IMG/VR virus record: IMGVR_UViG_3300037628_000606
Coordinates: 1 to 38,186 of that record
Length of the DNA stretch: 38,186 bases
Source: a virus
Reading direction: 5' to 3' (one strand)
In this document: positions 3,409-38,186 of the stretch, piece by piece
Position numbering within the stretch: the stretch's first letter is position 1
Layout: each line of letters starts with the position of its first letter
The notes under the pieces: model-generated
Databases searched by the model: none
Seen by the model: only the letters and a program-made list of their open reading frames with translations
What the model was told of the DNA's origin: nothing
Program-made: the position numbers and the translations under genes

Positions 3409-3526
3409 CTCTTAGAACGCTCCTGCACTTCTCAGTATCAATCAACACACTACGATACACCGTGGTACGATCTCCGTGAATCTCAGGGCACCGAGTGATG
3501 GTGTCATCCTAGTAATGGAGGTTGGA
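3409..3526. promoter_or_regulatory. Divergent early control region
   Basis: All genes left of here read leftward and all to the right up to 16.3 kb read rightward, so promoters for both early units must lie here or just inside the flanking genes. Leftward, TTCACG-17-TATCGT is a poor sigma70-like match. TACGAT occurs twice (near 3451 and 3466) around an ACACCGTGGT half-dyad, and CACC/GGTG arms occur near 3490-3505. None of these is strong enough to name an exact start or operator. Confidence 0.45.
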
Positions 3527-4051
3527 ATGTCAGACGCAGAGGGCTATGAGACATGGACCATAGCGGAGTTGAAAGGGGCGCTTCGAGAGTTGCCCTTGCC
3601 TGTATCCGGGAGCAAGGCCGAGCTGGTCGCTCGACTGGTGGAATATGACAAGGACGTCGAGGAAGAAGCTGAGGAAGTCGAGGCAATCGAGAAGGAAGAG
3701 CTGTACGGAGATTCGCCAATCGCGGCCGTCCTCAACAGGATCGCCGATCTCCTCGAGCCTTTTGCGGGTATCGCAGAGCAGCTCGCTGCCCAGATGCAAA
3801 CAGATGAGGAGAAGTCCCCAACCGCCCCGACTCTAGTTCCGGCTTCGCCGCCCGAGCCCGATGAGTCGGACACCCTCCGCGCCCACGTCAAGGACGCGAC
3901 CAAGCGGCTACTAACCGCCCAACCCGACGGCCGCAGCCGCGCCAAGTCTGTGTTGGCCGAGTTCGGCGGCAGCGTGTCGAAGGTGGATGCGGACGACCTC
4001 GGTGCATGTCTGCAGGCCCTGCAGAACCACCTCGACGAGCTGGGCGTATGA
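3527..4051 (+). CDS. SAP-domain protein, first rightward early gene
   Basis: 174 aa when started at the ATG preceded by GGAGG (5-base spacing); GTG at 3476 and ATG at 3515 are in-frame alternatives with poorer ribosome sites. Residues about 10-40 are a SAP motif (WTIAELKGALRELPLPVSGS, then KAELVARLVEY), a DNA-binding helix-extended-helix. An acidic stretch, a predicted amphipathic helix and a Pro/Glu linker follow. The C-terminal 60 residues contain helices with an EFGGS turn, like C-terminal modules seen in phage recombination or ssDNA-binding proteins. Its place at the head of the recombination/replication block suggests a DNA-binding role. Confidence 0.72.
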   Translation: MSDAEGYETWTIAELKGALRELPLPVSGSKAELVARLVEYDKDVEEEAEEVEAIEKEELYGDSPIAAVLNRIADLLEPFAGIAEQLAAQMQTDEEKSPTAPTLVPASPPEPDESDTLRAHVKDATKRLLTAQPDGRSRAKSVLAEFGGSVSKVDADDLGACLQALQNHLDELGV

Positions 4052-6667: not shown

Positions 6668-6700
6668 AGGTCGGTGTTTGTTACGCACCTTCCCCGACCT
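6668..6700 (+). other. Hairpin upstream of DNA polymerase
   Basis: AGGTCGG (6668-6674) pairs with CCGACCT (6694-6700), and GTG/CAC can pair inside. No T-run follows, so it is not a classic intrinsic terminator. It lies in the 100-bp gap between the ssDNA-binding protein and the polymerase start and could tune readthrough or polymerase translation. Confidence 0.4.
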
Positions 6701-6737
6701 CATCCCAGTCCTCCGCGTCCTCGCCCTAGAGTTCATC

Positions 6738-8861
6738 ATGATCTACCTAGATTTTGAGTCGAGGTCCAGAGCCAATCTGCCGAAGTGTGGTGCATCAGCT
6801 TATGCAATGGATCCGTCCACGCAGGTGCTGTGTGCTTTCTGGGCAATAGACAATGGGCCGGTCAAAGGCTGGCATCGAGCTCACCCGCACATAGCTGAGA
6901 GTCCACCACCAGAGGAATTCCTAGATGCCGTATCTGATGGGCATCGAGTAGAAGCCCACAACGCCGGCTTCGAGAGGGCGATCGTACTCCACTCGTGGCA
7001 TCGCGAATATCGCTGGGCGGCAGATCTCGCGAGTCAGCTGCGCAACCCCGAGCGATGGCGGTGCTCAGCCGCAAGGGCCGCCTCCTTCGGGTTGCCGAGG
7101 TCCCTTGATGGTGCGGCTATGGCCCTTCGTCTGACCGAGCGCAAAGACCCCGAGGGGAAGCTGCTGATCCACCTCCTCTGCAAACCACAGAAGGATGGTA
7201 GTTGGGCTGAAGATCCAGATCCTCTAGAGTACCTGTGGGACTACTGTGCCCAAGATGTCGTGACTGAGCGAGCCGTCTCGCAAGCGCTAATCCCGCTCAT
7301 AGACGACGAGCAGCGACTGTGGGAGGCTGACTGCCGCATGAACGAGAGGGGCTTCTCGCTGGACGCCCGTTTTGCTCGTGAGGCGTTGAGCCTCGTAGAC
7401 GAGGAGAAGGCAGAGCTGAATGCGGAACTATACGAGTTGACGCTCCACCACGTCGAGCGGGGTACGCAGCGGGCCCGCTTCATTAAGTGGGCCGATTACA
7501 TGGGTGTTCACCTCTCGAACACCAAGAAGGAAACGGTGACGGAGTTGTTAGAGTCGGGCGACCGTTTACCCAAAGCGGTGAGGCGTGGCCTCGAGATCTT
7601 GCGGACCGTGAACATGACAAGCGTGACCAAGTTCAAGACCGCACTGGTCTCGGTGTGCGACGACGGCAGGTTGCGGGACACTCAGATGTTCCACGGAGCT
7701 AATACCGGTAGGTGGACAGGCAAGGGGATACAGCCTCACAACTTGCCCAGGGGCGTGTCGCCAGTTGGCTGTGAGGAGATGGCCTTGGATGCTAGTCTCG
7801 ACCTCGAGGATTTCCGCCTTCTCCATGGGTCGCCGACCGAGAAGTTGTCCGCCGCTATACGCGGGTTGTTCGTTGCTTCTAAGGGCTTGCATCTGTTCGT
7901 CGCCGACTACAGTGCAATCGAGGCTAGGGTGCTCTGCTGGCTAGCAGGTCAGGAGGACGCTGTCGAGCTCTTTCGCCGGGGGGACGACGTCTACATGGAC
8001 ATGGCCGCCTCGGTCTATGCTTGTGAGCTTCGCGACGTAGACTCCGACAAGCGCTTCGTCGGCAAGCAGGCTGTCCTCGGTCTCGGATACGGTATGGGCG
8101 CGACCAAGTTCAGCGACAACGTGAGGATGCTAGGCCTACGCTTCGGCTTCAAGGCCGACATGCCACTCGGCTTCTACAAGTCTGTCGTTGACGTGTACCG
8201 CCGGGAGAAGTACCAGCAGGTCGCCGAGTTCTGGGGCGTGCTCGAGCGGGCCGCGATCGCAGCCGTGAGGGAGGGTGGGATGCACCTAGCAGGGGACAAG
8301 CTAGCGCTCGCTATGCGCGGCAGGTTCCTCCGCATCAGACTGCCTAGCGGCAGGATGCTGTCCTACGCCGAACCTATGCTCGCTCTCCGCACCCTGTGGT
8401 ACTTTTCAGCTGTCAACTCCGAGCAAGAGAAGGTCTCATTACCTGTCCGCACGAAGCGGGGTGAGGCTGTGCCCTGGGTACGAGCCAAGAAGACGGCAGA
8501 GGAAAGAGGTTGGACCTTACTGCGTGATGAGCCGAGTGACCGTGACGGTGAGGAGCTAACCTACATGACGGCCCGAGGTATGGGAGCCTGGATCCGGGAG
8601 GGCACCTATGGCGGGAAGCTCGCGGAGAATGTCACACAAGCGGTAGCCCGGGACGTACTCGCCGGCGCGATCTTGAGGGCTGACGCGGACTACGAGTTTC
8701 ACAAGGTCCTCCTAACCGTGCACGACGAGATCATCTGTGAGGCCCCTCCCAATACCAACATAGCTAGGTTTGCGCGCCTGGTCGGCGAGCCGCCTGAGTG
8801 GGCTCCTGACCTGCCCGTAGACGTGGAGCCCTGGCACGGACCGAGGTACGGCAAAGCATGA
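6738..8861 (+). CDS. polA: Family A DNA polymerase with 3'-5' exonuclease
   Basis: Replicative polymerase, 707 aa from the ATG giving MIYLDFES. This start puts exonuclease motif I (LDFE, residues 4-7) at the N-terminus as is usual; an upstream TTG adds 20 residues unlike the family. Exonuclease motif II is HNAGFERA and motif III YCAQDVV. Polymerase motif A is DYSAIEARV (Asp390), motif B near 438 is KRFVGKQAVLGLGYG, and motif C is VHDE near 661. All catalytic acids are visible. It follows nuclease and SSB genes and overlaps the next small gene by ATGA. The phage therefore probably replicates with its own polymerase plus the leftward-encoded primase-helicase. Confidence 0.95.
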   Translation: MIYLDFESRSRANLPKCGASAYAMDPSTQVLCAFWAIDNGPVKGWHRAHPHIAESPPPEEFLDAVSDGHRVEAHNAGFERAIVLHSWHREYRWAADLASQLRNPERWRCSAARAASFGLPRSLDGAAMALRLTERKDPEGKLLIHLLCKPQKDGSWAEDPDPLEYLWDYCAQDVVTERAVSQALIPLIDDEQRLWEADCRMNERGFSLDARFAREALSLVDEEKAELNAELYELTLHHVERGTQRARFIKWADYMGVHLSNTKKETVTELLESGDRLPKAVRRGLEILRTVNMTSVTKFKTALVSVCDDGRLRDTQMFHGANTGRWTGKGIQPHNLPRGVSPVGCEEMALDASLDLEDFRLLHGSPTEKLSAAIRGLFVASKGLHLFVADYSAIEARVLCWLAGQEDAVELFRRGDDVYMDMAASVYACELRDVDSDKRFVGKQAVLGLGYGMGATKFSDNVRMLGLRFGFKADMPLGFYKSVVDVYRREKYQQVAEFWGVLERAAIAAVREGGMHLAGDKLALAMRGRFLRIRLPSGRMLSYAEPMLALRTLWYFSAVNSEQEKVSLPVRTKRGEAVPWVRAKKTAEERGWTLLRDEPSDRDGEELTYMTARGMGAWIREGTYGGKLAENVTQAVARDVLAGAILRADADYEFHKVLLTVHDEIICEAPPNTNIARFARLVGEPPEWAPDLPVDVEPWHGPRYGKA

Positions 8862-9049: not shown

Positions 9050-10913
9050 GCTCTGGGGTCACCAGCGGAACGAGCTGGACAACTATTACGACGACCCGTC
9101 CCGCGGTCTGCTCTGGTCGATGCGCTCGGGCAAGTCGAGGGTAATCATCGAGAGCGCCTGCCGACTCCACCGTGAGGGTCGAATAACAGGCCTACTCGCG
9201 ACGGCGCCGAACGGCGTGCACGCGCAGTGGATCAGTCGTCAGTTCCCCCTCTGGGCCACGGGACCGATCGGTGAGATGCTGGCATGGCGCTCGTCCTCCA
9301 CTTCGCCGGCTGACGTCGACCGGTTCTTGAAGGATCCAGAGGGACTCCACGTGTTGACCGTCAACGTGGAGGCACTCCAGATCAAACGCGTCCAGGACAT
9401 CATCCGTAGGTTCCTCAAGTTACATGGTGGTGGTGATACCGTCATGGCCGTGTTCGACGAGAGTCACGACTTTAGATCGCCCGGCGCGAGGCGCACGAGG
9501 CTGGCCCGGGGTTTGGCTAGGCGTTGCAAGTTCCGGAGGATCCTGACCGGCACCGCCTCGGATAACAGCCCGCTCCACCTCTTCTCGCAGTTCGAGCTGC
9601 TCCAGCCGTGTGCCCTAGGCCACAGGACTTACTCCTCCTTCAAGGCGCACCATGCCGAGTACAGGGAGCAGAGGAGAGCGGACGGCCGGTCCTACCCTCA
9701 ACTTACCGGATACAGGAATCTCGAGGAGCTCCGGGACTGGGCATCCCTGTGGGCCTCGGTCGTCACGCGTGCTCAGGCAGATGTCCCTGAGGTACTACTG
9801 ACCGAGCGCGTCGTGCAGCTCAGCTCCCCACAGCGACGTGCTTATGACGATCTAGCACGTGACGCTTTGCGGATTGATGCCGAGGGGGAAGGGGAGATCG
9901 AGGTACGTAAGCATCTCATGAAGATGCAGCAGGTGCTCGGCGGTTTCGTCCACTTCAATGATACTTATGGCAACCACGTCCATGCTATCAAGGGACCTAT
10001 ACCTCGGATCAAAGCAATGGTCGAAGAGGTGCTTGGCTCTGAGCCACTCCGCGTGATTGTTTGGTGCCGTTTCAGGGAGGACATACGCTTGTGCTGCCTC
10101 GCCCTGCGCGAGGCCGAGGTGAGGGTGGTCGAGTATCACGGGGGTGTATCAGACGATGACAAGGAGGCTGCGATCGCCGCGCTCCAGGATGGTCCCGCCC
10201 CGATCGTCTTCGTCGGCCAGCCGCAGGCTGCGGGACAGGGTCTCGACCTGTCAGCGGCCTCGACGGTGATCTGGTACAGCCACGTCTACGGCGACGCGAT
10301 CGTAAGGGAGCAGGCCTCGGCCCGCGCCTCCGTCAAGGGTGGCGACCGCGTCGTGATGGTCGACCTGGTCGCCGAGGACACGCTGGATATCGGTATGCTC
10401 GAGGCGCTCCACGACAAGGCCGAGCTGGGTGACAGACTTACCGGCAACGGCCTAGCCGAGTTGCTGGCGGGAGGTTCACCAGCACTTGTAGACGCTGGCC
10501 CTTCTCGGATACCTGTGAATGAGTTCTCACAGTATGATTCTTCCATCGAATCTACCGGGTTACAAGAACCCACCCCACGCATAGCTGAGGAGATAGACAT
10601 GGCACAGCGTAAGGCAGCGACCAAGAAACCCGTCGCCAAGAAGAAGGCGACCAAGAAAACCCCGGCGAAGCCCAAGGGTCCGACCATCAGCGACACCGCC
10701 CGCAAGGCCATCAAGGCCGGCGCGACCAACGCGGAGGCACTCGCCACCGTCAAGGCCGCCCACCCCGACGCGAAGACCACCATGGCCAGCGTCGCCTGGT
10801 ACCGCAACGACATGCGCAAGGCCGGTCAGAAGGTGAAGACCTCCCGCGAGATCAGCGCCGCACGCCGCGCCAAGGAGAAGAAAGCCAAGGCCGCTGAGGA
10901 CAAGAAGTCCTGA
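9039..10913 (+). CDS. SNF2-like superfamily 2 helicase with histone-like tail
   Basis: 624 aa. The helicase core spans about 1-480: Walker A variant WSMRSGKS (26-33), DEAH-type box DESH (140-143), motif III LTGTASDNSP, and the C-terminal lobe with VGQPQAAGQGLDLS and the motif VI region REQASARA near 420-430. This matches phage DEXH/SNF2-like ATPases that remodel or unwind DNA. The C-terminal 104 residues are different: a Lys/Ala-rich histone H1-like stretch followed by a small WY-containing domain also found in two later genes. That part has its own ATG and AGGAG ribosome site at 10599. Its codons are noticeably more C/G-ending than those of the core, suggesting a fused, originally separate gene. 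Confidence 0.88.
   Translation: MKPELWGHQRNELDNYYDDPSRGLLWSMRSGKSRVIIESACRLHREGRITGLLATAPNGVHAQWISRQFPLWATGPIGEMLAWRSSSTSPADVDRFLKDPEGLHVLTVNVEALQIKRVQDIIRRFLKLHGGGDTVMAVFDESHDFRSPGARRTRLARGLARRCKFRRILTGTASDNSPLHLFSQFELLQPCALGHRTYSSFKAHHAEYREQRRADGRSYPQLTGYRNLEELRDWASLWASVVTRAQADVPEVLLTERVVQLSSPQRRAYDDLARDALRIDAEGEGEIEVRKHLMKMQQVLGGFVHFNDTYGNHVHAIKGPIPRIKAMVEEVLGSEPLRVIVWCRFREDIRLCCLALREAEVRVVEYHGGVSDDDKEAAIAALQDGPAPIVFVGQPQAAGQGLDLSAASTVIWYSHVYGDAIVREQASARASVKGGDRVVMVDLVAEDTLDIGMLEALHDKAELGDRLTGNGLAELLAGGSPALVDAGPSRIPVNEFSQYDSSIESTGLQEPTPRIAEEIDMAQRKAATKKPVAKKKATKKTPAKPKGPTISDTARKAIKAGATNAEALATVKAAHPDAKTTMASVAWYRNDMRKAGQKVKTSREISAARRAKEKKAKAAEDKKS
10599..10913 (+). CDS. Internal in-frame start: histone-like protein with WY domain
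   Basis: An ATG in frame with the helicase is preceded by GAGGAG at good spacing and would give a separate 104-aa basic protein (MAQRKAATKKPVAKKK and on). Residues 1-27 are Lys/Ala/Pro-rich like histone H1 or bacterial HU tails. Residues about 28-75 form the WY domain (ISDTARKAIKAG, then AKTTMASVAWYRNDMR), with Trp67 and Tyr68. The tail is again basic. No stop separates it from the helicase, so it is either an alternative product or a fusion that retained its ribosome site. A DNA-compacting or DNA-binding role is likely from composition. Confidence 0.6.
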   Translation: MAQRKAATKKPVAKKKATKKTPAKPKGPTISDTARKAIKAGATNAEALATVKAAHPDAKTTMASVAWYRNDMRKAGQKVKTSREISAARRAKEKKAKAAEDKKS

Positions 10914-10963: not shown

Positions 10964-10998
10964 GTCGTCCCTTCTAGTGATACTGAGGAGGGTTGGAG

Positions 10999-11886
10999 AT
11001 GGCTAGGGATCTACTCGCCGCGCCATGCACATGGTGCGAGTACAACGGTGAAGGATACTGGCAAAGGGAAACGCACGCAGAGTTCTGTCCATGGTATCTC
11101 ATAGCTGGGCTCGAGCCTCGGCTCCACTTCCTGCGCTCCTTTGGCAGGACGCAGAGTGTGCTGGATGGCATGCTGGTCGACGTCGATAGGTTCCACCGAG
11201 AGGTACTCGAATTCACTCCACCCGATAAGCCGACCCTGCTCAGTGAAGATACTGAGCGAGACCTGCGGACTTGCCTCGACGAGGAGCTGGCCGAGTATGA
11301 CGAGGCGACAGCGATAGACGACAAGGCAGATGCGCTAGTCGACCTTGTCTACTTCGCCCTCGGTGGCCTGCTCAAGATGGGCGTCGCCCCCGGTGCCGTG
11401 TTCGCTCAGGTCCACGAGGCGAACATGCGGAAGAGGCGGGGCACCAATGACACGAGGCCAAAGCAGCATGTAGACGCGGTCAAGCCGAAGGGCTGGACTC
11501 CGCCGATGATTGACGCCCTCCTGAGAGCCTCCCCTTTAGACGTGCTGCTTGCCACCCATATGTCCCCCCTGTTCGGTGTTTGTGCCGCGGTCAGGAAGGA
11601 ACGAGGTGACCAGTACAATCAGGCCGGCGTCGACCTAGGGGACTACTTCCCATTCGACCACGTCAGCCACGCGCAGATGGTCCACGTGAAGGGGACGCGT
11701 CTCCGCGCCGAGGTTCAGGGGTCTAACTTCAATCCCGAGTTCTCTGCGCTACGCGAGCACCTGAGGGACCTCGTCAACTACGCCTGCTTTTGGTACGAGT
11801 TCGCGCTCGAGCAGGAGGACGACAAGGCTACTGCTCTACGCCTTCCCCGATTCTCGACACGGCAATCCTTGGAGGGAAGTGAGTGA
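10999..11886 (+). CDS. MazG-like NTP pyrophosphatase fused to DUF1599 domain
   Basis: 295 aa, ATG preceded by GAGGAGGG. N-terminal CTWC (10-13) with His27/Cys30 looks like a small zinc motif. The middle is an all-alpha NTP-pyrophosphatase of MazG type: EELAEYDEA (Glu95, 96, 99) and DDKADALVDL (Asp111, 115) supply the metal ligands, followed by EANMRKRRG. Residues about 170-270 resemble DUF1599 (nucleotide-modification-associated domain 1): RKERGDQYNQAG, VHVKGTRLRAEVQ, LREHLRDLVNYACFWYEF. It probably hydrolyses a (d)NTP to the monophosphate. Its stop overlaps the start of the thymidylate-synthase homologue, so product and next enzyme are coupled; dCTP is an attractive but unproven substrate. 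Confidence 0.78.
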   Translation: MARDLLAAPCTWCEYNGEGYWQRETHAEFCPWYLIAGLEPRLHFLRSFGRTQSVLDGMLVDVDRFHREVLEFTPPDKPTLLSEDTERDLRTCLDEELAEYDEATAIDDKADALVDLVYFALGGLLKMGVAPGAVFAQVHEANMRKRRGTNDTRPKQHVDAVKPKGWTPPMIDALLRASPLDVLLATHMSPLFGVCAAVRKERGDQYNQAGVDLGDYFPFDHVSHAQMVHVKGTRLRAEVQGSNFNPEFSALREHLRDLVNYACFWYEFALEQEDDKATALRLPRFSTRQSLEGSE

Positions 11887-12821
11887 CGATCTACAAGGGC
11901 TTTGCTGCCCAGTATACCGACCTACTACAAGGGCTCCTCGACCCGTCCGCCTTCCGCGAGACGAACGAGAGAACGGGGGTTGGCGTCTCCTTCATGCCAC
12001 AGGGGTGGAGCCTCACCGTCAACGTAGGGCGTGGGCTCCCACTCATCAACCTCCGCAAGACGTACCCCCGCACCGCCGCGGCAGAGGTCGAGTGGTTCGT
12101 CTCCGGGGAGAGGTCGCTCGACATCCTACATAGACACAGCGTCCACATGTGGGATGACTTCGCTTATAGAACTACTCGCCCACCTGGCATGGCGGTCGGG
12201 ACGGCTTACGGCTACCGGTGGCGGAAGCACTTCGGCCGTGACCAGCTGAGGGAGGCGGTCAGCACCTTGATCGAGGATCCTACTAGCCGGCGGGTGGTCG
12301 TGACCGCTTGGGACCCGAGCGAGGATGGGATGCGATCAACGCAGGTAGCCACCCCGTGTCCGTTCGGTTTCAGCCTGTCGACATCGCGGATGCCTCCGAA
12401 CAAACCTCGACCGCAAGACAGCCACCCAGTAGACGCAATGAGGTATGCAACAGAATCCTCAAGGCGCATGCTCAACTCCTCCCTGTGGATCCGGTCGAGC
12501 GACGTGTTCGTCGGCTTGCCCTACGACGTGATGGGTCACGCTGTGCTAATGGGTATCCTCGCGGCCGAGCTCGGCATGCAACCCGGCTGGCTACACGTGT
12601 CGCTCGCCCACCCGCATCTATACGATGTCCACAGAGAGATGGCACGGGAAGGCCTCGAGCACATCACACTGAGGAGGATGATGGCACCACATATCGTCGT
12701 ACCTCACGTGACCCTGAGCGAGGTCGAGGAGATGCCGGGTATCCTGGTCGCGACGTACGAGACAGCGCAGAGCCTGACAGACTGGCCGCTCTTCAACCCG
12801 AGGCCGGAGGTGGTGAAGTGA
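11883..12821 (+). CDS. Thymidylate-synthase-fold enzyme, probably dCMP-specific
   Basis: 312 aa, GTG start overlapping the previous stop (GTGA). Family landmarks: VEWFVSGERSLDILHRHSVH with MWDDF, YGYRWRKHFGRDQL, DPTSRRVVVTAWDP, catalytic Cys159 in TPCPFGFSL, RSSDVFVGLPYDV, and the AHPHLY segment. In dUMP-specific synthases the last-but-one motif reads GxPFN, the Asn fixing uracil; here Asp215 replaces it, as in T4-type dCMP hydroxymethylase (Asp179). The usual PCH is PCP, and about 20 extra residues follow the catalytic loop. This predicts dCMP methylation or hydroxymethylation rather than dTMP synthesis. Plain ThyA remains possible if other pocket changes compensate. Confidence 0.85.
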   Translation: MTIYKGFAAQYTDLLQGLLDPSAFRETNERTGVGVSFMPQGWSLTVNVGRGLPLINLRKTYPRTAAAEVEWFVSGERSLDILHRHSVHMWDDFAYRTTRPPGMAVGTAYGYRWRKHFGRDQLREAVSTLIEDPTSRRVVVTAWDPSEDGMRSTQVATPCPFGFSLSTSRMPPNKPRPQDSHPVDAMRYATESSRRMLNSSLWIRSSDVFVGLPYDVMGHAVLMGILAAELGMQPGWLHVSLAHPHLYDVHREMAREGLEHITLRRMMAPHIVVPHVTLSEVEEMPGILVATYETAQSLTDWPLFNPRPEVVK

Positions 12822-13252
12822 TGACAAACAAATGGGACGAGAGGTTCTGTGGACTCGCTGCTCAAGTCGCCGTCTGGTCTAAGGATCCAGAAAGGAAAGT
12901 CGGCGCCGTGATCGTCAACCCCGACCGGCGGGTGGTCGGGGTCGGCTACAACGGCTTCCCTCGTGACGTGTCCGACACGGCTGAGAGGCTGAACAACGTC
13001 GAGGAGCGACGACTCATGTCGGTCCACGCCGAGACGAATGCCGTCCTAAACGCTTGGTCCATGCGGGGTTCGACGCTCTACTCCACCTCCTTCCCGTGCG
13101 CTGGCTGTGCCGGGATTATCATCCAGGCTGGGATATCCAGGGTGGTCGCTCCACTACCAGAGAAGGACAGTAGTTGGGCTACTTCATGGGACATGGCTTT
13201 GGCCATGTTCAAAGAAGCCGAGGTGAATACTTACCTATATAGAATTCGATGA
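12821..13252 (+). CDS. Deoxycytidylate (dCMP) deaminase family protein
   Basis: 143-aa zinc deaminase. HAETNA (His69, catalytic Glu71) and PCAGC (Cys93, Cys96) give the complete zinc/catalytic set, and KVGAVIVNPDRRVVGVGYNGFPRD is characteristic of dCMP deaminases rather than cytidine or tRNA deaminases. The ATG shares one base with the previous stop (TGATG); the reading frame remains open far upstream but overlaps the synthase gene, so that extension is rejected. It converts dCMP to dUMP and would balance the pool used by the preceding synthase homologue, as in T4-like nucleotide modules. Confidence 0.88.
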   Translation: MTNKWDERFCGLAAQVAVWSKDPERKVGAVIVNPDRRVVGVGYNGFPRDVSDTAERLNNVEERRLMSVHAETNAVLNAWSMRGSTLYSTSFPCAGCAGIIIQAGISRVVAPLPEKDSSWATSWDMALAMFKEAEVNTYLYRIR

Positions 13253-13686
13253 AGACTAGGGAGAGATCTCTCTGGCGGTGGCTCGCGAAGGCGCGTGCGG
13301 ACGGGTGTCACCTCGAACGGATAGAGAACGTTCTCTCCAGGTCCACGCCCGACGTTGAGGCCTCCGCGGGTGTAGGGGGATTCTGGGTCGAGCTGAAGTC
13401 GGCCGAGAGACCGGCCCGTCGGACAACCCTGATCCGCGTCAAGTTCCAACACGGTCAGTCCCGCTGGCTCGAGCGGAGGTGGAACTTCGACCGCTGCGCC
13501 TGGCTGCTGATCCAGGTCGGACCGGCGAGGTACATGATCCCCGGGGTGCACGCCCCGGCAGTGGAGCGGGGTATGACCGAGGACGATCTCGCGATGCACT
13601 CAATAGTCCGCGGAGACAGGTCGCCGGACGAGATCCTGACGGCCGCCTCGAACATCATATGGGGAGGAGACAATGAAGAAGAGTAG
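13249..13686 (+). CDS. VRR-NUC-like PD-(D/E)XK nuclease
   Basis: 145 aa, start overlapping the deaminase stop (ATGA). A small restriction-endonuclease-like fold is suggested by Asp35 (RSTPDVEAS), the strand FWVELKSA with Glu48 and Lys50 (ExK), and QHGQSRWLERRW, which supplies the conserved Gln and helix of VRR-NUC or Holliday-junction-resolvase-like phage nucleases. The later AWLLIQVGPARYMIPG strand pair also fits that fold. It probably processes branched DNA or degrades host DNA. The C-terminal 40 residues are acidic and not assigned. Its end overlaps the next small gene by 14 bases. Confidence 0.75.
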   Translation: MKTRERSLWRWLAKARADGCHLERIENVLSRSTPDVEASAGVGGFWVELKSAERPARRTTLIRVKFQHGQSRWLERRWNFDRCAWLLIQVGPARYMIPGVHAPAVERGMTEDDLAMHSIVRGDRSPDEILTAASNIIWGGDNEEE

Positions 13687-15062: not shown

Positions 15063-15440
15063 ATGGCTACTATCAAGGAACTGATCCAGGAACACAACGA
15101 GCTGGCCACGATCGTGGATGCTCAGCCTTTCAAGTCGGCCCCTAAGGGCGGCAAGAAGGGACTGCTGATTCGGATCGCAGCCCTCAAGCGTGAGCAGCAC
15201 TCTCAGGAGACCGGCGAGAAGCTGACGATCCGTCAGATCGCGGAGGACGCGCTGGTCGTGGTCGTGGGCAAGGACGAGCACGGCAACGAGCTGGGTCACC
15301 CGTACGAGGACATCATCACGATCGTCCGCGGGTTCTTCCCGGAGGCCGAGACGACCGCCCGCTCCCTCGCGTGGTACGCGTCCAAGATGCGGTGCGCCGA
15401 CATCCACGTCCCTTACCGCCCGCGTGCACGGAGGTCCTAA
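15063..15440 (+). CDS. WY-domain protein
   Basis: 125 aa, preceded by a TAGGAGT ribosome site. The C-terminal half carries the same small domain found in the helicase tail and in the gene at 15658: LTIRQIAEDAL at its start, then FFPEAETTARSLAWYASKMR with Trp104 and Tyr105, and a longer insertion between the two parts than in the other copies. The N-terminal half is helical and basic (KSAPKGGKKGLLIRIAALKR). The fold is probably a small helical DNA- or protein-binding unit; similar FPxxxT...WY segments occur in other phage proteins of unknown role. Third of the window's paralogues to lie in the early unit. Confidence 0.78.
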   Translation: MATIKELIQEHNELATIVDAQPFKSAPKGGKKGLLIRIAALKREQHSQETGEKLTIRQIAEDALVVVVGKDEHGNELGHPYEDIITIVRGFFPEAETTARSLAWYASKMRCADIHVPYRPRARRS

Positions 15441-15677
15441 GTGAGCGATCGGGAAGAACTACGGTGGAGCGATCACTTCGACAATGACCGCGAGGCCGGT
15501 GGCTCTGGTGGCTCTGGTGGTTCTGGCGGGTGGCTCTGCGAGTGCGGCTCCGCGAACAAGCCCGCAGAAACCGTCTGCGTACGATGCGACAAGCCCCAGA
15601 AGGGGGGACTTCCCAAAGACTTCCGGTTCACACACTTCCTACACGGGGGCAAGCCTAGTGGCAAAGAAGATCGGTGA
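15441..15677 (+). CDS. RanBP2-type zinc-finger small protein
   Basis: 78 aa, GTG start directly after the previous stop. After an acidic N-terminus and a Gly/Ser linker (AGGSGGSGGSGG, 19-30), residues 31-49 form a RanBP2-like zinc ribbon: Trp31, Cys33, Cys35, Asn39, Cys46, Cys49 (WLCECGSANK, then VCVRC). Spacing is W-x-C-x-C-x3-N-x6-C-x2-C. Such fingers bind ssRNA or proteins and are best known in eukaryotes, though bacterial versions exist. The remainder is short and basic. Its end overlaps the next gene by 20 bases. RNA or protein binding is inferred from the motif only. Confidence 0.75.
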   Translation: MSDREELRWSDHFDNDREAGGSGGSGGSGGWLCECGSANKPAETVCVRCDKPQKGGLPKDFRFTHFLHGGKPSGKEDR

Positions 15678-16101
15678 CGTCGCAAGGGAAGCGCTCGAGG
15701 CCGGAGCCTCCGACGAGGAGGCTCTTGCCGCGGTCCTCGAGGAATTCCCGGAGGCGAAGACTAAGGTCGCCTCCATCAAGTGGTATCGGAGCCAACTCCG
15801 CCGGGAGGTGAAGGAGGGGAAGAGGGAGGCTGGCGGTGAGGGCGCGTCCAAGAGGAGGTCCGTGGACCTGTCGCGGCGGCATGAAGGGATGACCCCCGAG
15901 CTCGCAGCGAAACTCCGTGAGAATGCAACCAAGCGTCGCGACGAGAAGCATGCCAAACTCTTAGCAGATCAAGAGGAGCGGATCAAGGCGAGAGGAGTGA
16001 TACCGGACCGGGCCAACATGATCCGGTCGGCCGCCCTCCGCTACAAGAAGGAGCACGGATTCTGGCCGGCTCCGTCGGACCTGAACCTACTAGGAGGATG
16101 A
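15658..16101 (+). CDS. WY-domain protein with basic helical C-terminus
   Basis: 147 aa from GTG preceded by GGGGG; the frame is open further upstream but that part overlaps the zinc-finger gene. Residues 4-49 are the clearest free-standing copy of the domain: IGDVAREALEAGASDEEALA, then FPEAKTKVASIKWYRSQLRR, with Trp42 and Tyr43. A Lys/Arg/Gly-rich linker and a charged helix with KLRENATKRRDEKHAK follow, and the end (RSAALRYKKEHGFWP) may be another small helical unit. Overall very basic, suggesting DNA or RNA binding. It sits two genes after another WY protein. Confidence 0.74.
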   Translation: MAKKIGDVAREALEAGASDEEALAAVLEEFPEAKTKVASIKWYRSQLRREVKEGKREAGGEGASKRRSVDLSRRHEGMTPELAAKLRENATKRRDEKHAKLLADQEERIKARGVIPDRANMIRSAALRYKKEHGFWPAPSDLNLLGG

Positions 16102-18746: not shown

Positions 18747-21700
18747 TTATATGGTGAATAAGTACTCGTCGCCGGGGTAGATGCCAGCGATGTCGTCGAA
18801 TGTGGCCTGTGTCACGTCCGTGCTGTTGGTCACGACGATGTCCGTCCAGCCCGCGAACGGCACCACCTCCGTCGCGCCACCGGCCATCGAGGCATCTATG
18901 GTCGCGACCCCACTCGACTCGGTCGCCTCCGCCACGACGACGCCTGCGGAGTCGCGGATCTTCGCCTTGAACCCGGTCGGCAAGTCGCGTACGACGACGT
19001 CCTTCGACCGGCAGACCATGTAGTCGTCCCACTCGCATGAGACACTTATGCCGGTACCTGCATGGACGCCACCGCGGCCCGTACCGGTGAAGCCACCGTG
19101 CGTGCCGGTGACGGTCGCGATCGGGCCGCCCGTGCGTTTCTGTATCCAACCGTCCTGGACGGAATCCTTGACGTAGAACTGTACGTCCCACTCGTCGTTG
19201 TCGTTGATCGTGATGGCACCAGATGAGTTGACCAGTGTGACGAAGGCACCCCCATTCCAGTACCAGATCCGGAGCCGATCCTGGAAGGTGCCGAGCTGGA
19301 GCAAGTAGCCGCCGCTCCCGTCGGACCACTTACCGAGTAATCCGACAGGCACGCTATCGTCACCGGAGCGCGCGAAGGCTTGTACGAACATCTCGTCGAG
19401 CCCGTCAGAGGGGATCAAAGTTGTTTGCATCTCTGCGCCCGTCGGTGTGTCCTGTAATTCGTTGGACGCAATCAGCGGGGCGGCTCCTCTGTGGACCGTC
19501 CAGTCGGCGCCAATTGCGCCATCGGCGCGGTCGAAGTTGTCCGACGCGAACAGGCCCTCAACGACGCGGCTGAGGCCAAGCTCTACCATGCGCTCCGTGT
19601 ACTCGAGCCAGCAGTCACCCACCTCGACGTCGCCCACGGTATCACCCGCCACGGCGACGTTGCGCGATAGGAGGATGATGACCTTGTCCCCGGCGACGCC
19701 GCCGTCGAAGTTGGCGAGGTTGACGACGAAGGTCCCCTGATCGTCGATCGTACCCGGCACTACCACGACGCCCTCGTTGTCGGTGTCGTAATCGTCGGCA
19801 GCCGTCGGGTCCCCGTCCGACGTGGCCATGACGGCGACCGTGATCCCTAACGATCCGGTGGCGGCCGTCGCTCGGAAGACCCCCTTCAGCCTCAGCACGG
19901 GGTCGCCGTCGAAGTCGATCGGCAGCACGAAGCTCCAGGAGGCGAACTCCTCGGTGGTGTCGTCGAAGGCCAGGACGCGTGGCCAGCCTGCAGCGCTCGT
20001 GATGACCGCCGGCACGTTCGCCTCGAGCAGCTCGGCCGCGGCGATCGTGAGCGGGATCGTCCGGATAGGTGTGGGGAGGGGCACCCACTTCATGAGTCCG
20101 GGCTCGTTTATGTCTGGTACGAGACGCGAGTCGCCGAAGACGGGCGGTGCCAACAGACCCAGTGTCTCGACGCCTGTCGCCACTAGCAGGTTTCCAGGAG
20201 TGTACTCCTTGAACCCCGTCCCACCGAACACAACCCGTAGCGGGGCCTCGATTTCGTAGGGGACTATCCTGTCGAAGGCCGGTTTGCCGAATGTGACCTG
20301 GTGCTCGGCCGTGACCCCGTCGTGTTTCATCGCCACGCGGTTGCCGATGTAACTCCGCTCCGGGCCCCGGTTGCTGGAGGTGTCGTTGGCATAGGTGAAG
20401 GACTCGACGAAGCTTACGCCGTCGACCGGGTCTACCGTGAAAACGTGCGCCTCCTGCGTGTTAGGCGTCGTGCTCGCCGGCCGCTCGCGGAACGCGATCG
20501 CGCTGTCGGAAAAGAAGCACAGGGAGACACCCTTCATCATCGAGGTCGACAGGGCGAGGGTGTCCTCAACGTCGAGGGTCAGCGTGCCTCCGGCGACGTC
20601 GATCACCGCGTACCGGACATTGGAGGCGTCATCGCGCGCCACCATGAACAGGCGGGCGTCGTCCTCGTCGATGTCAAGGCTGACATAATTACCGGTTACC
20701 ACTTGGGTGTCGGAGATCGAGGGCGCGGTCGGGTCGCTGATGTCGATCGAAACCACGTCGGATCCGGCGCCTGTCGCGTACAGGAATAGCCCGTCGGACG
20801 AGGGGACGCAGGAGTCGGCAGATGACAGCCCGGTGGCGAACTCGTTGTCCAGTACCGGGTTGGCCGGGTCACTCACGTCGAAGATGAAGATCGAGCCGCC
20901 GCCGGTCTCTGGCCAGTACACGTGATTGCCGACCCAGACGCCCTCGGTGTAGTCGTTGTTATCGGCTATGCCGGTGAAGGACACACTCCCGAGGAACCCG
21001 GTGAGGAGGCTCACGACGAGGAAGATCGGGTTTGCGCCATCACGCTCTATGAGACAGGCCGTCGTATTGTCCGGCTTGACGATGATGGATTTCTTGAAAC
21101 TCGACGCGTTCAATTCATTCCAGGTAAATATGGTTGACGGCGAGGCCTCCGGCTTGTCGTCGGCGTCGATCGCATACATTTCCAGGTGGGACTTCCGCGG
21201 CGTGGCGACCGGCCCGCGACCTGCCTCTATCACGTGGCCGCCCTGACCGAAGCCCTGATGCGTGATGCTGATAGCAACCCCGCTGACACCCCCCGTCAGC
21301 GAGTCCGACAGGGCTCCTTGGAACCACTGAGCGGGGATTTCCACAGGGTCGTGGATGAGAACGCCAGGCGTAGGCAGAACGCGAACAAGCCCAGGCGTCG
21401 CCTCGATCTGCATGGGTATGGTCCTGGGCGGGAGCTTGCGGCGGTACTCACTCTGCCAGGAGCCGTCGAGGAACCCGTCGACCGCCGTGATGGTGTGCCA
21501 GAGCTCACGCACCCCGGGGGAGACAGCGGTCTCGACATTCATGATGAAGAAGGTCTCCTCATCGATGCCGAGGTTCGGCAGGTCGACGGTCACCTGCTGG
21601 CCGATGTCGAAGCCCGAGACGCGGGTCATGGCCGTGAACCTCTGGCGGATCTGCTTCCGCTGCAGGAGGATGCCCTCAGCCTTGACCTCTGCCTGGTTAG

Positions 21701-22472
21701 CTGACAAGATCTCAGAGTCTTCTACGACGTCGTGGTAGATACCCGAGCCGCCCTCGACCGCCGCCCGCGCCGCAATCTCGGTGGCGTCGCGGGCCGTGAA
21801 GAGGATGGGCAGCTCGTGGTTGCCGCCGACCACGGTGATGGTGTTGGCGTACCCGGTGCGATCGGGCTGGATGGTCGGCTTTGGTCTGTTCAGTTCGACG
21901 TTCCGGGCGTTGAGTTCGGCGGGCGCCGCCGTCGCGCTCTGAACGTCGATGGTTAGGACCTTCGACGGCGACACGAGCCAGCTGCGTCCGTCGCTCTCGA
22001 GGGCGCAGAGGATGTCGAGCGCCTCCGCCACCGTCTCGCCGTTGAACGTGACTGTCTGGACGGAGCCGGCGAGCACCGACAGCGTGATGCCCTCGCCATC
22101 GAGGAAGTCCGTGTTGATGTCGGTGACGATATCCGCGAAGGTGATAGCCGTGTAGACTCTCCAGATCCTGCGCTTGTTCAGCCGCAGCTCCCAGGAGGCG
22201 ACGTCGATCTGGTAGAATGTCAGCTGCTTCGCGGAGTCGGGCCCTCTGAAGTTGCGCGGCCTGCCGTTGATTATGCCGCCGAACCTGTCGACGCCGTCCT
22301 CCTTGATTAGGACCTCCATGCCGTCGGTGGGCACGAAGCCGTCGGGAGTATCCGCGAGCACGAATCCCGCGTTGCCCTGACTGTTGATGTCTCGGCTGTA
22401 CGATAGGCGGTTGTCGCGGTCGATTAGCTTTGACCGGTCGACGCTGTCAATGGTGACGGTGATGTCGGCCAT
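18747..22472 (-). CDS. Tail-tip / baseplate hub protein fused to propeller and lectin-like domains
   Basis: 1241 aa, start sharing one base with the tape-measure stop. About 1-350 resembles siphophage tail hub/Tal proteins (gp27-like): TFADIVTDINTDFLDGEGIT and GFDIGQQVTVDLPNLGID are typical. About 420-720 looks like a beta-propeller with LVIVD-type repeats (IFIFDVSDPANPVLDN, VVSIDISDPTAPSI). About 975-1150 is a concanavalin/laminin-G-like fold (DNFDRADGAIGADW, then a trailing GTGRGGVHAGTGIS strand). The extreme C-terminus is another beta domain. The protein probably combines tail tip and receptor-binding functions in one chain. No separate fibre gene is visible, so this is the best candidate for host recognition. 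Confidence 0.8.
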   Translation of the reverse strand: MADITVTIDSVDRSKLIDRDNRLSYSRDINSQGNAGFVLADTPDGFVPTDGMEVLIKEDGVDRFGGIINGRPRNFRGPDSAKQLTFYQIDVASWELRLNKRRIWRVYTAITFADIVTDINTDFLDGEGITLSVLAGSVQTVTFNGETVAEALDILCALESDGRSWLVSPSKVLTIDVQSATAAPAELNARNVELNRPKPTIQPDRTGYANTITVVGGNHELPILFTARDATEIAARAAVEGGSGIYHDVVEDSEILSANQAEVKAEGILLQRKQIRQRFTAMTRVSGFDIGQQVTVDLPNLGIDEETFFIMNVETAVSPGVRELWHTITAVDGFLDGSWQSEYRRKLPPRTIPMQIEATPGLVRVLPTPGVLIHDPVEIPAQWFQGALSDSLTGGVSGVAISITHQGFGQGGHVIEAGRGPVATPRKSHLEMYAIDADDKPEASPSTIFTWNELNASSFKKSIIVKPDNTTACLIERDGANPIFLVVSLLTGFLGSVSFTGIADNNDYTEGVWVGNHVYWPETGGGSIFIFDVSDPANPVLDNEFATGLSSADSCVPSSDGLFLYATGAGSDVVSIDISDPTAPSISDTQVVTGNYVSLDIDEDDARLFMVARDDASNVRYAVIDVAGGTLTLDVEDTLALSTSMMKGVSLCFFSDSAIAFRERPASTTPNTQEAHVFTVDPVDGVSFVESFTYANDTSSNRGPERSYIGNRVAMKHDGVTAEHQVTFGKPAFDRIVPYEIEAPLRVVFGGTGFKEYTPGNLLVATGVETLGLLAPPVFGDSRLVPDINEPGLMKWVPLPTPIRTIPLTIAAAELLEANVPAVITSAAGWPRVLAFDDTTEEFASWSFVLPIDFDGDPVLRLKGVFRATAATGSLGITVAVMATSDGDPTAADDYDTDNEGVVVVPGTIDDQGTFVVNLANFDGGVAGDKVIILLSRNVAVAGDTVGDVEVGDCWLEYTERMVELGLSRVVEGLFASDNFDRADGAIGADWTVHRGAAPLIASNELQDTPTGAEMQTTLIPSDGLDEMFVQAFARSGDDSVPVGLLGKWSDGSGGYLLQLGTFQDRLRIWYWNGGAFVTLVNSSGAITINDNDEWDVQFYVKDSVQDGWIQKRTGGPIATVTGTHGGFTGTGRGGVHAGTGISVSCEWDDYMVCRSKDVVVRDLPTGFKAKIRDSAGVVVAEATESSGVATIDASMAGGATEVVPFAGWTDIVVTNSTDVTQATFDDIAGIYPGDEYLFTI

Positions 22473-36837: not shown

Positions 36838-38142
36838 TCAGACCACCCCCCAGCCGCCGCTACCGCCGCGCAGGCCTTCCGTCGCGTACCTCATAGAGTC
36901 CATGTAGTGGTTATCCTTGTCCAGCGGTATGGGCAGCAGCTCGCCCGTGTGCCTGTCCGTCTTCCATGAGTATGAGGCGAGCTCGGCCGCAGCCCGCTTG
37001 CACCTCGGGTGCACGATGATCTCGTATGATTCCAGCCTCTTGATTCCCTCGTCTATCGACCCGGGTCCCTTCTTGGCCCCCTTGATATTGGGGAAGCCGT
37101 GACGCCTCAGGTATGAGATGGCGTCGGGCTTTGACGAGTCCGCCTTGATCGGCCAGCGCCTCGCACCAGGCACGCCTGGTAGGCCGACCATCGATGTGGG
37201 CAGTGAGTCGAAGCCGTCCTGGTTGAGAGCCCTCAGCTCCTCGTCCTCCGTGCCGCCGAAGAGGAAGGGCAGGTGGTCTGTCTCGCAGCCTAACATGTAG
37301 GCCTCGTAGTCGACATACATCTGCCGCCCACGTACGAACAGGCGCACGAGCACGGAAGGATCGATGCTGAACCCCCAGTCCCCGCCGAGCCTGAGCACGT
37401 CGTTCTCGTTGGGGATGGGCGTGTCGCCGATGCGCCAGTTCTTGATGATCCTCGCCTCGGTCAGGATCTGATATCCGCCTTCCCAGACGTGGGCGTACTT
37501 GTCTGGGTTGGCTGCTAGGTCGTAATCCTTCTCTACGATTAGGACTCTCGGGAACCATGGGTTGTCGCGCCAGTTGACCTCGATCACAACAGAGTCGGGG
37601 TGCTTGTGCTTGCCCCTCAGCAGGACGTCGACCGGGTCGGTCGGCTGTATGGGGTTCCAGCTGAACCAGATCTCCGAGCCGCCCTTGATCGAGCCGTCCT
37701 CCCTGACGACCGGGTCGTTCCTGAAGGTGGGCCGTAGCAGGTCGAGACTGCGCTGGGATAGCGACTGCGCCTCCTCTACCCAACAGGTGTCGAACCCCTC
37801 GAGCGACTTGATCGAGTCGCTCGTGTGGTTCTGCATGCCCTGGAAGATGATGATCCCACCGCCGTGCACGTTGATCTGCGCTTGCTGGACCTGGAAGTAG
37901 TTCTGCACGCCCAGCTTCTTGATCTTGTCCTCGAGCAGCTTCTTGACCGACTCCTTGAGGGACAGCTGCACCTCGCGGATGCACACAGCGCGATGGCCTG
38001 GATCCATGACGCAGCGCTCTATGAGGGCCTCCGCAAAGTAGTGGGACTTCGCCCCGCCCCTGCCACCATGCGCTCCCTTGTATCTGGCTGGCCGCAGCAA
38101 CGGCAGGAAGGCTCGAGGTGTGGCGAGCTGCAATATGCTCAT
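36838..38142 (-). CDS. terL: Terminase large subunit (PBSX/XtmB type)
   Basis: 434 aa from the ATG giving MSILQLATPR, with AGGTGG about 8 bases upstream; a frame-open upstream ATG at 38184 is in the repeat and not preferred. Walker A GGRGGAKSH (26-34), Walker B DTCWVEEAQ (118-126) with catalytic Glu, then the RNase H-like nuclease: GGDWGFSIDP (Asp255), IKADSSKPD (Asp335), and DNHYMDSMRYA (Asp415). This order and the HGGRGG loop fit the Terminase_3 family. It is the packaging motor. It lies at the right edge, with its partner terS at the left edge on the same strand. Confidence 0.92.
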   Translation of the reverse strand: MSILQLATPRAFLPLLRPARYKGAHGGRGGAKSHYFAEALIERCVMDPGHRAVCIREVQLSLKESVKKLLEDKIKKLGVQNYFQVQQAQINVHGGGIIIFQGMQNHTSDSIKSLEGFDTCWVEEAQSLSQRSLDLLRPTFRNDPVVREDGSIKGGSEIWFSWNPIQPTDPVDVLLRGKHKHPDSVVIEVNWRDNPWFPRVLIVEKDYDLAANPDKYAHVWEGGYQILTEARIIKNWRIGDTPIPNENDVLRLGGDWGFSIDPSVLVRLFVRGRQMYVDYEAYMLGCETDHLPFLFGGTEDEELRALNQDGFDSLPTSMVGLPGVPGARRWPIKADSSKPDAISYLRRHGFPNIKGAKKGPGSIDEGIKRLESYEIIVHPRCKRAAAELASYSWKTDRHTGELLPIPLDKDNHYMDSMRYATEGLRGGSGGWGVV

Positions 38143-38157
38143 ACATGTCCCACCTGC

Positions 38158-38186
38158 CTCCCATCCTCTCCCACCCTCTCCCATAC
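38158..38186. repeat. Right copy of terminal inverted repeat
   Basis: Reverse complement of the left end: 22 exact bases (38165-38186 with 3-24), one mismatch, then six more. It lies just upstream of the terL ribosome site and shows the same GGGAGAGGGT period with decay. Together with the left copy it forms the palindrome when the ends are joined. Confidence 0.9.

Follow-up and report, generated by a model that had tools for sequence, protein, structure and literature searches.

Background

The DNA of phage Xp12, in which cytosine is fully replaced by 5-methylcytosine (5mC), is cut by KpnI and AhdI (PMC7653180), and cells infected by this phage contain a tetrahydrofolate-dependent dCMP methyltransferase (PMC8543423), an activity that has been known since 1976-78. 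The XP-12 deaminase, in which the residue numbered 128 is a Trp, turns 5-methyl-dCTP into dTTP (PMC12088426). AXL1, a phage closely related to Xp12, has DNA that is cut by 5 of 31 enzymes, i.e. AseI, TasI, Tru1I, KpnI and Eam1105I, the last two partially, and its authors gave the genetic mechanism behind this restriction-resistant DNA as unknown (PMC9206674); the DNA of phage DLP4 resists 36 enzymes (PMC6469090). The enzymes that cut AXL1 DNA are A/T-only enzymes plus KpnI and Eam1105I. AhdI and Eam1105I are isoschizomers. The restriction pattern of AXL1 is 5mC-like and matches that of Xp12.

Exchanging Asn for Asp turns thymidylate synthase (TS) into a dCMP methylase, as shown by Liu and Santi 1992 and others (cited in PMC8670742), and in the MetaGPA study Asp177 and position 147 (E. 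coli TS numbering, as throughout) were the top two TS positions tied to cytosine-modified contigs, the TS in question co-occurring with PRA-PH and dCMP-deaminase domains (PMC8670742). According to the T4 gp42 structure paper, hydroxymethylases are marked by an Asp (or Glu) that precedes the catalytic Cys by three residues; T4 gp42 carrying D145N makes no 5hm-dCMP, and hydride transfer leaves dihydrofolate and thereby a need for dihydrofolate reductase (DHFR), whereas hydroxymethylation does not (PMC6400193).

Here we analyse a DNA stretch of 38,186 nucleotides from an uncultured phage (IMG/VR record IMGVR_UViG_3300037628_000606, positions 1 to 38,186; hereafter the window), for which an initial annotation had pointed out a TS homologue with a dCMP-type residue. 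We consider it probable that this protein is a dCMP 5-methylase of the Xp12 kind, encoded within a putative precursor-replacement cassette, and the DNA of this phage probably carries 5mC, which would shield it against the restriction enzymes of the host.

Results and discussion

A thymidylate synthase homologue with a dCMP-type residue

The protein was aligned with E. coli ThyA (sequence of PDB 1aob), T4 gp42, SPO1 gp29 and M6 gp58. The motif GLPYD occupies residues 211-215, and Asp215 falls in the column of E. coli Asn177 and T4 gp42 Asp179, so that the ORF translation and the alignment bear out the initial annotation both on the replaced Asn and on the T4 equivalent. Cys159 aligns with E. 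coli Cys146 and T4 gp42 Cys148, Pro160 with E. coli His147, and Ala156 with E. coli Leu143 and T4 gp42 Asp145. The TS fold, the catalytic Cys and the phosphate-binding Arg are all present. When superposed on ThyA, as had been proposed, the AlphaFold2 model of the protein (pLDDT 90) matches the E. coli enzyme with a VIA Z of 30.7, 256 residues being aligned at 1.9 A; T4 gp42 is absent among the 50 structure matches listed for the model, which carries no weight either way.

Table 1. Location of the cassette genes and of the key residues of the TS homologue in the window
Feature	Position	Strand	Remarks
MazG/PRA-PH-type nucleotide pyrophosphohydrolase	10993-11886	+	PF01503 E 2.5e-10; phrog_18404; putative dCTP-removing role
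TS homologue, putative dCMP 5-methylase	11883-12821	+	GTG start, 312 aa; PF00303 (Thymidylat_synt) E 1.1e-40
Ala156, 3 residues N-terminal of Cys159	12348-12350	+	Hydroxymethylases have Asp and nearly all relatives Asn here
Cys159 (catalytic) and Pro160 (E. coli TS position 147)	12357-12362	+	
25-residue insertion, about residues 168-192	12384-12458 (limits approximate)	+	Alignments; low-confidence model loop
Asp215 codon GAC, dCMP-type residue (E. coli TS position 177)	12525-12527	+	
dCMP-deaminase-like protein, 143 aa	12821-13252	+	PF00383 E 7.1e-22; phrog_174; putative 5-methyl-dCMP/dCTP role
phrog_2165 protein, last gene of the cassette	13249-13686	+	PHROG lists helicase; nuclease-like by annotation of relatives

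Some traits are private, or nearly so, to this protein. Cys159 and Leu197 lie 38 steps apart, against 13 in E. coli TS and AXL1; the insertion that had been noted before is thus real, the earlier length of 20 residues being slightly low. Apart from a shorter one in a single related locus (L005) it is found in the window protein only. As a mark of a new activity the insertion is unlikely, because it forms a low-confidence surface loop and is absent in the relatives, and it is probably incidental. The window protein is also the only sampled close family member with Ala at position 156. At the C-terminus the model places residue 312 on E. coli residue 264; by sequence the protein ends about 4 residues short of E. 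coli TS. In TS a tail at this end closes the active site when hydride is transferred, and T4 gp42 lacks it; given the shorter sequence, the tail is a soft argument on the product.

The cassette and its partner genes

The TS homologue is the second gene in a row of four, preceded by the MazG-like gene and followed by the dCMP-deaminase-like and nuclease-like genes. The MazG ORF overlaps the TS start, the deaminase ORF the TS stop and the nuclease-like ORF the deaminase, an arrangement that suggests one translationally coupled cassette. It sits in a replication module with an exonuclease, a ssDNA-binding protein, a family A polymerase and a helicase. The deaminase is 45% identical to that of AXL1, and its Trp119 aligns with AXL1 Trp128; the Trp that matches XP-12 Trp128 was dropped as a discriminating mark, as M6 has it too. 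Sugar-transferase, carbamoyltransferase and 5hmU-decorating families were not seen among the window proteins scanned. Separately, residues ~185-297 of the MazG-like protein (~110 aa) have no Pfam match, and this C-terminal region could harbour a domain for another activity or for specificity.

Conservation of residues and gene context in relatives

Scanning viral sequences with the window protein as the single query recovered no relative; profile scans did. The nearest cultured relatives belong to the Bradleyvirinae (Donnerlittchen, DLP4, AXL1, PaMx74 and others), together with Achromobacter phage JWX and Rhodobacter phage RcRudolph, and Roseobacter phage RDJL Phi 2 lies further out. By tblastn the best relatives are 37-43% identical and canonical phage TS about 23-29%. 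All seven cultured relatives that were fetched have Asp177, Pro147 and the MazG-TS-deaminase cassette, with a DHFR after the deaminase in DLP4, AXL1, PaMx74, Donnerlittchen, RcRudolph and RDJL Phi 2, not in JWX; the cassette, usually with DHFR, recurs in Bradleyvirinae phages and many IMG/VR contigs.

In the published annotation of the relatives the gene belongs to an ordinary TS that makes dTMP from dUMP, and here the neighbouring dCMP deaminase would feed it. The fold and the catalytic residues agree with this, and a dCMP deaminase and a DHFR as neighbours are the partners classically used to make dTMP (PMC6469090). Nevertheless, Asn177, His147 and Gln165 are all replaced, although the seven canonical phage TS that were fetched all keep Asn177 and His147, an Asp substituted at 177 favours dCMP (PMC8670742), and the restriction-resistant DNA of the relatives would be left without explanation. 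We regard an ordinary TS as very unlikely.

In the loci L004-L042 the conservation of Asp is circular, as these were found by a pattern that included GLPYDVM. They were replaced by a scan with the N-terminal half of the protein, using the patterns xAWDPxxDG and AYGYRWR, both of which lie before position 143. The 80 loci kept comprise 52 of the window family and 28 of the M6 type (42 and 12 clusters, respectively, when collapsed at 90% identity). Every window-family locus has Asp177 and Pro147, position 143 being Asn except in L074, where it is Thr, and every M6-type locus has Asn177, Asn147 and Asp143. Since Asp and PCP are fixed throughout the clade, including the relatives found without the Asp motif, they are not a matter of chance, and the change of PCH to PCP, which the initial annotation had counted as a departure of this enzyme, is a fixed mark of the whole clade.

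These residues also bear on a third activity, that of a dUMP hydroxymethylase giving modified thymine, the label that the Lydia paper applies to all Mesyanzhinovviridae homologues (PMC11946847). M6, a member of the same virus family, does have such an enzyme. M6 gp58, SPO1 gp29 and the M6-type loci, however, share the combination Asn177/Asn147/Asp143 where the window protein has Asp/Pro/Ala, and the window proteins scanned yielded none of the 5hmU-decorating families. This activity we hold to be extremely improbable.

The gene context separates the two groups in the same way: MazG, deaminase and DHFR were found in the neighbourhoods of 46, 45 and 37 of the 52 window-family loci and in none of the 28 M6-type ones, with the reservation that the partner queries came from Asp-type phages and that many of the M6-type contigs are short. 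The Pfam DHFR model PF00186 gave 10 of 32 window-family and 0 of 13 M6-type records; it is insensitive for phage DHFRs, which is why phage DHFRs served as queries for the counts given above.

In a maximum-likelihood tree the window protein pairs with that of contig L004 (100/99) and groups with the enzymes of the Xp12 kin AXL1 and DLP4, the Xp12 protein itself not being in the tree. The family forks off at 84/77, and the Asp177/Pro147 group stands apart from the ThyA-like, T4 and SPO1/M6 enzymes, in a tree with weak support at a number of its deep forks and a very long branch for T4 gp42. The relatives point to a dCMP methylase of the Xp12 type, for a protein that is only 39-46% identical to the AXL1 enzyme.

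One further locus (L052), from Escherichia phage vB_EcoBD_211, holds a distant TS homologue with Asp177, Tyr147 and Leu143, which may be an independent enzyme of the dCMP type.

Substrate, product and proposed pathway

The active-site residues, the clade, the operon and the literature all lend good support to the suggestion of the initial annotation that the enzyme would take dCMP rather than dUMP and that the phage DNA would contain modified cytosine, and the annotation's premise that Asn-to-Asp in TS shifts the preference to dCMP is backed by the mutant literature (PMC8670742). The annotation left the product as 5-methyl- or 5-hydroxymethyl-dCMP and drew on T4 gp42 for comparison; the evidence tilts this choice towards methyl.

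Were the enzyme a dCMP hydroxymethylase of the T4 gp42 kind, the exocyclic methylene would be captured by water and not by hydride, and the DNA would carry 5-hydroxymethylcytosine, bare or decorated. In favour of this, T4 gp42 likewise has an Asp at 177, Thr107-Ala-Tyr109, with its Thr two residues ahead of the active-site Tyr, is partly like the Ser/Thr-x-Tyr half of the T4-type signature, and the C-terminus is shortened. Nevertheless, T4 gp42, SPO1 gp29 and M6 gp58 all have the signature Asp, which is absent from the window family (Ala156, or Asn in relatives), and T4 gp42 with D145N is inactive. The DHFR neighbours of most relatives would not be needed for such chemistry, a carbamoyltransferase, which acts in the pathway from 5hmC that the MetaGPA study characterised (PMC8670742), was seen in none of 32 relative records, and the digestion pattern of AXL1 fits the 5mC phage Xp12. 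Hydroxymethylation is therefore unlikely, and methylation is favoured by the missing signature Asp, the clade and the DHFR beside most family members.

The 5-methylase would then work as follows. By analogy to T4 gp56, the MazG-like enzyme may convert dCTP to dCMP. In the TS homologue Asp215 would pair with the cytosine base of dCMP, as the residue and the mutant literature suggest, Cys159 would attack C6, and the one-carbon unit would come from methylene-tetrahydrofolate; hydride transfer would give 5-methyl-dCMP and dihydrofolate, in line with the absent hydroxymethylase signature, the clade and the DHFR linkage. Kinases would phosphorylate 5-methyl-dCMP to 5-methyl-dCTP, which the phage polymerase would use, so that 5mC is predicted to replace most or all cytosine in the genome and cytosine-sensitive restriction to be resisted. 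The deaminase, judging from Xp12, may turn 5-methyl-dCMP or 5-methyl-dCTP into dTMP or dTTP. No DHFR was found within the 38 kb of this phage, a record that may be incomplete; an adjacent DHFR is also missing in L004, JWX and several others, which implies that the host DHFR probably suffices.

It is possible, if somewhat less likely than not, that a broad siphophage lineage including this phage derives both its modified cytosine and its thymine from a single intermediate: the TS homologue would make 5-methyl-dCMP and the deaminase would convert it or its triphosphate into dTMP or dTTP, the reverse of the normal order. If so, a route to thymine with enzymatic evidence from Xp12 alone would turn out to be a widespread alternative.

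Other regions of the genome

The minus strand holds the tail, head and packaging genes. The best matches of the polymerase (replication genes 6678-8861, plus strand) are in Roseobacter phage RDJL3, Donnerlittchen and Achromobacter phages, and the terminase is closest to that of Xanthomonas phage PBR31 (packaging genes 36838-38184, minus strand); since the nearest relatives of the packaging genes differ from those of the replication genes, the genome is mosaic. A search of genome contigs found no relative of the TS homologue and so gave no prophage or host link.

A domain of ~50-60 residues occurs three times, in the C-terminus of the helicase (10599-10913) and in two small proteins (15063-15440 and 15484-16101), with pairwise identities of 31-40% (E 2e-6 to 3e-15); the related PHROGs 17205, 34102 and 38698 have no assigned function. 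A 1241-aa ORF (18747-22472, minus strand) adjoins the tape measure gene and has no PHROG match at E 0.01, and the early region encodes a SAP-domain protein (3476-4051, plus strand; PF02037, E 3.1e-11).

Implications for annotation

The gene has been published as thymidylate synthase (DLP4, AXL1, A1432) or dUMP hydroxymethylase (Lydia). Asp177 and Pro147 without the hydroxymethylase Asp, in a MazG-TS-deaminase-(DHFR) cassette, make a simple sequence test, which predicts 5mC genomes for many siphophages, whether cultured or not; the prediction is easily checked on phages already cultured. A dCMP methylase of the Xp12 type would be of a known kind; the family-wide prediction, drawn from sequence comparison, would be a useful addition.

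Comparison with known systems

With E. coli ThyA (30% identity) the window protein shares the fold, the catalytic Cys, Arg166, Tyr94 and Tyr209, whereas Asn177, His147, Gln165 and Leu143 are all altered. T4 gp42 (~19% identity) belongs to the same superfamily and likewise combines an Asp for cytosine with the catalytic Cys, but it has the Asp three residues before this Cys, which the window protein lacks, and its C-terminus is the shorter one, without the TS tail present in E. coli TS. The TS of MetaGPA modified contigs agree in Asp177, a changed position 147 and PRA-PH and deaminase partners (PMC8670742). Closest are the TS homologues of AXL1 (gp63) and DLP4, Stenotrophomonas phages of the genus Bosavirus (Bradleyvirinae) and kin of Xp12: Asp177, Pro147, Phe83, a conserved C-terminal PxPEV and the order MazG-TS-deaminase are shared, whereas these two phages have Asn where the window has Ala156, and a DHFR next to the cassette, which the window lacks; the insertion sets the window apart as well. 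The dCMP methyltransferase of Xp12, likened here by its described activity and not by sequence, carries out the reaction predicted here, in which dCMP becomes 5-methyl-dCMP with the help of a tetrahydrofolate cofactor, in a setting of related phages with the same kind of cassette (PMC8543423, PMC9206674).
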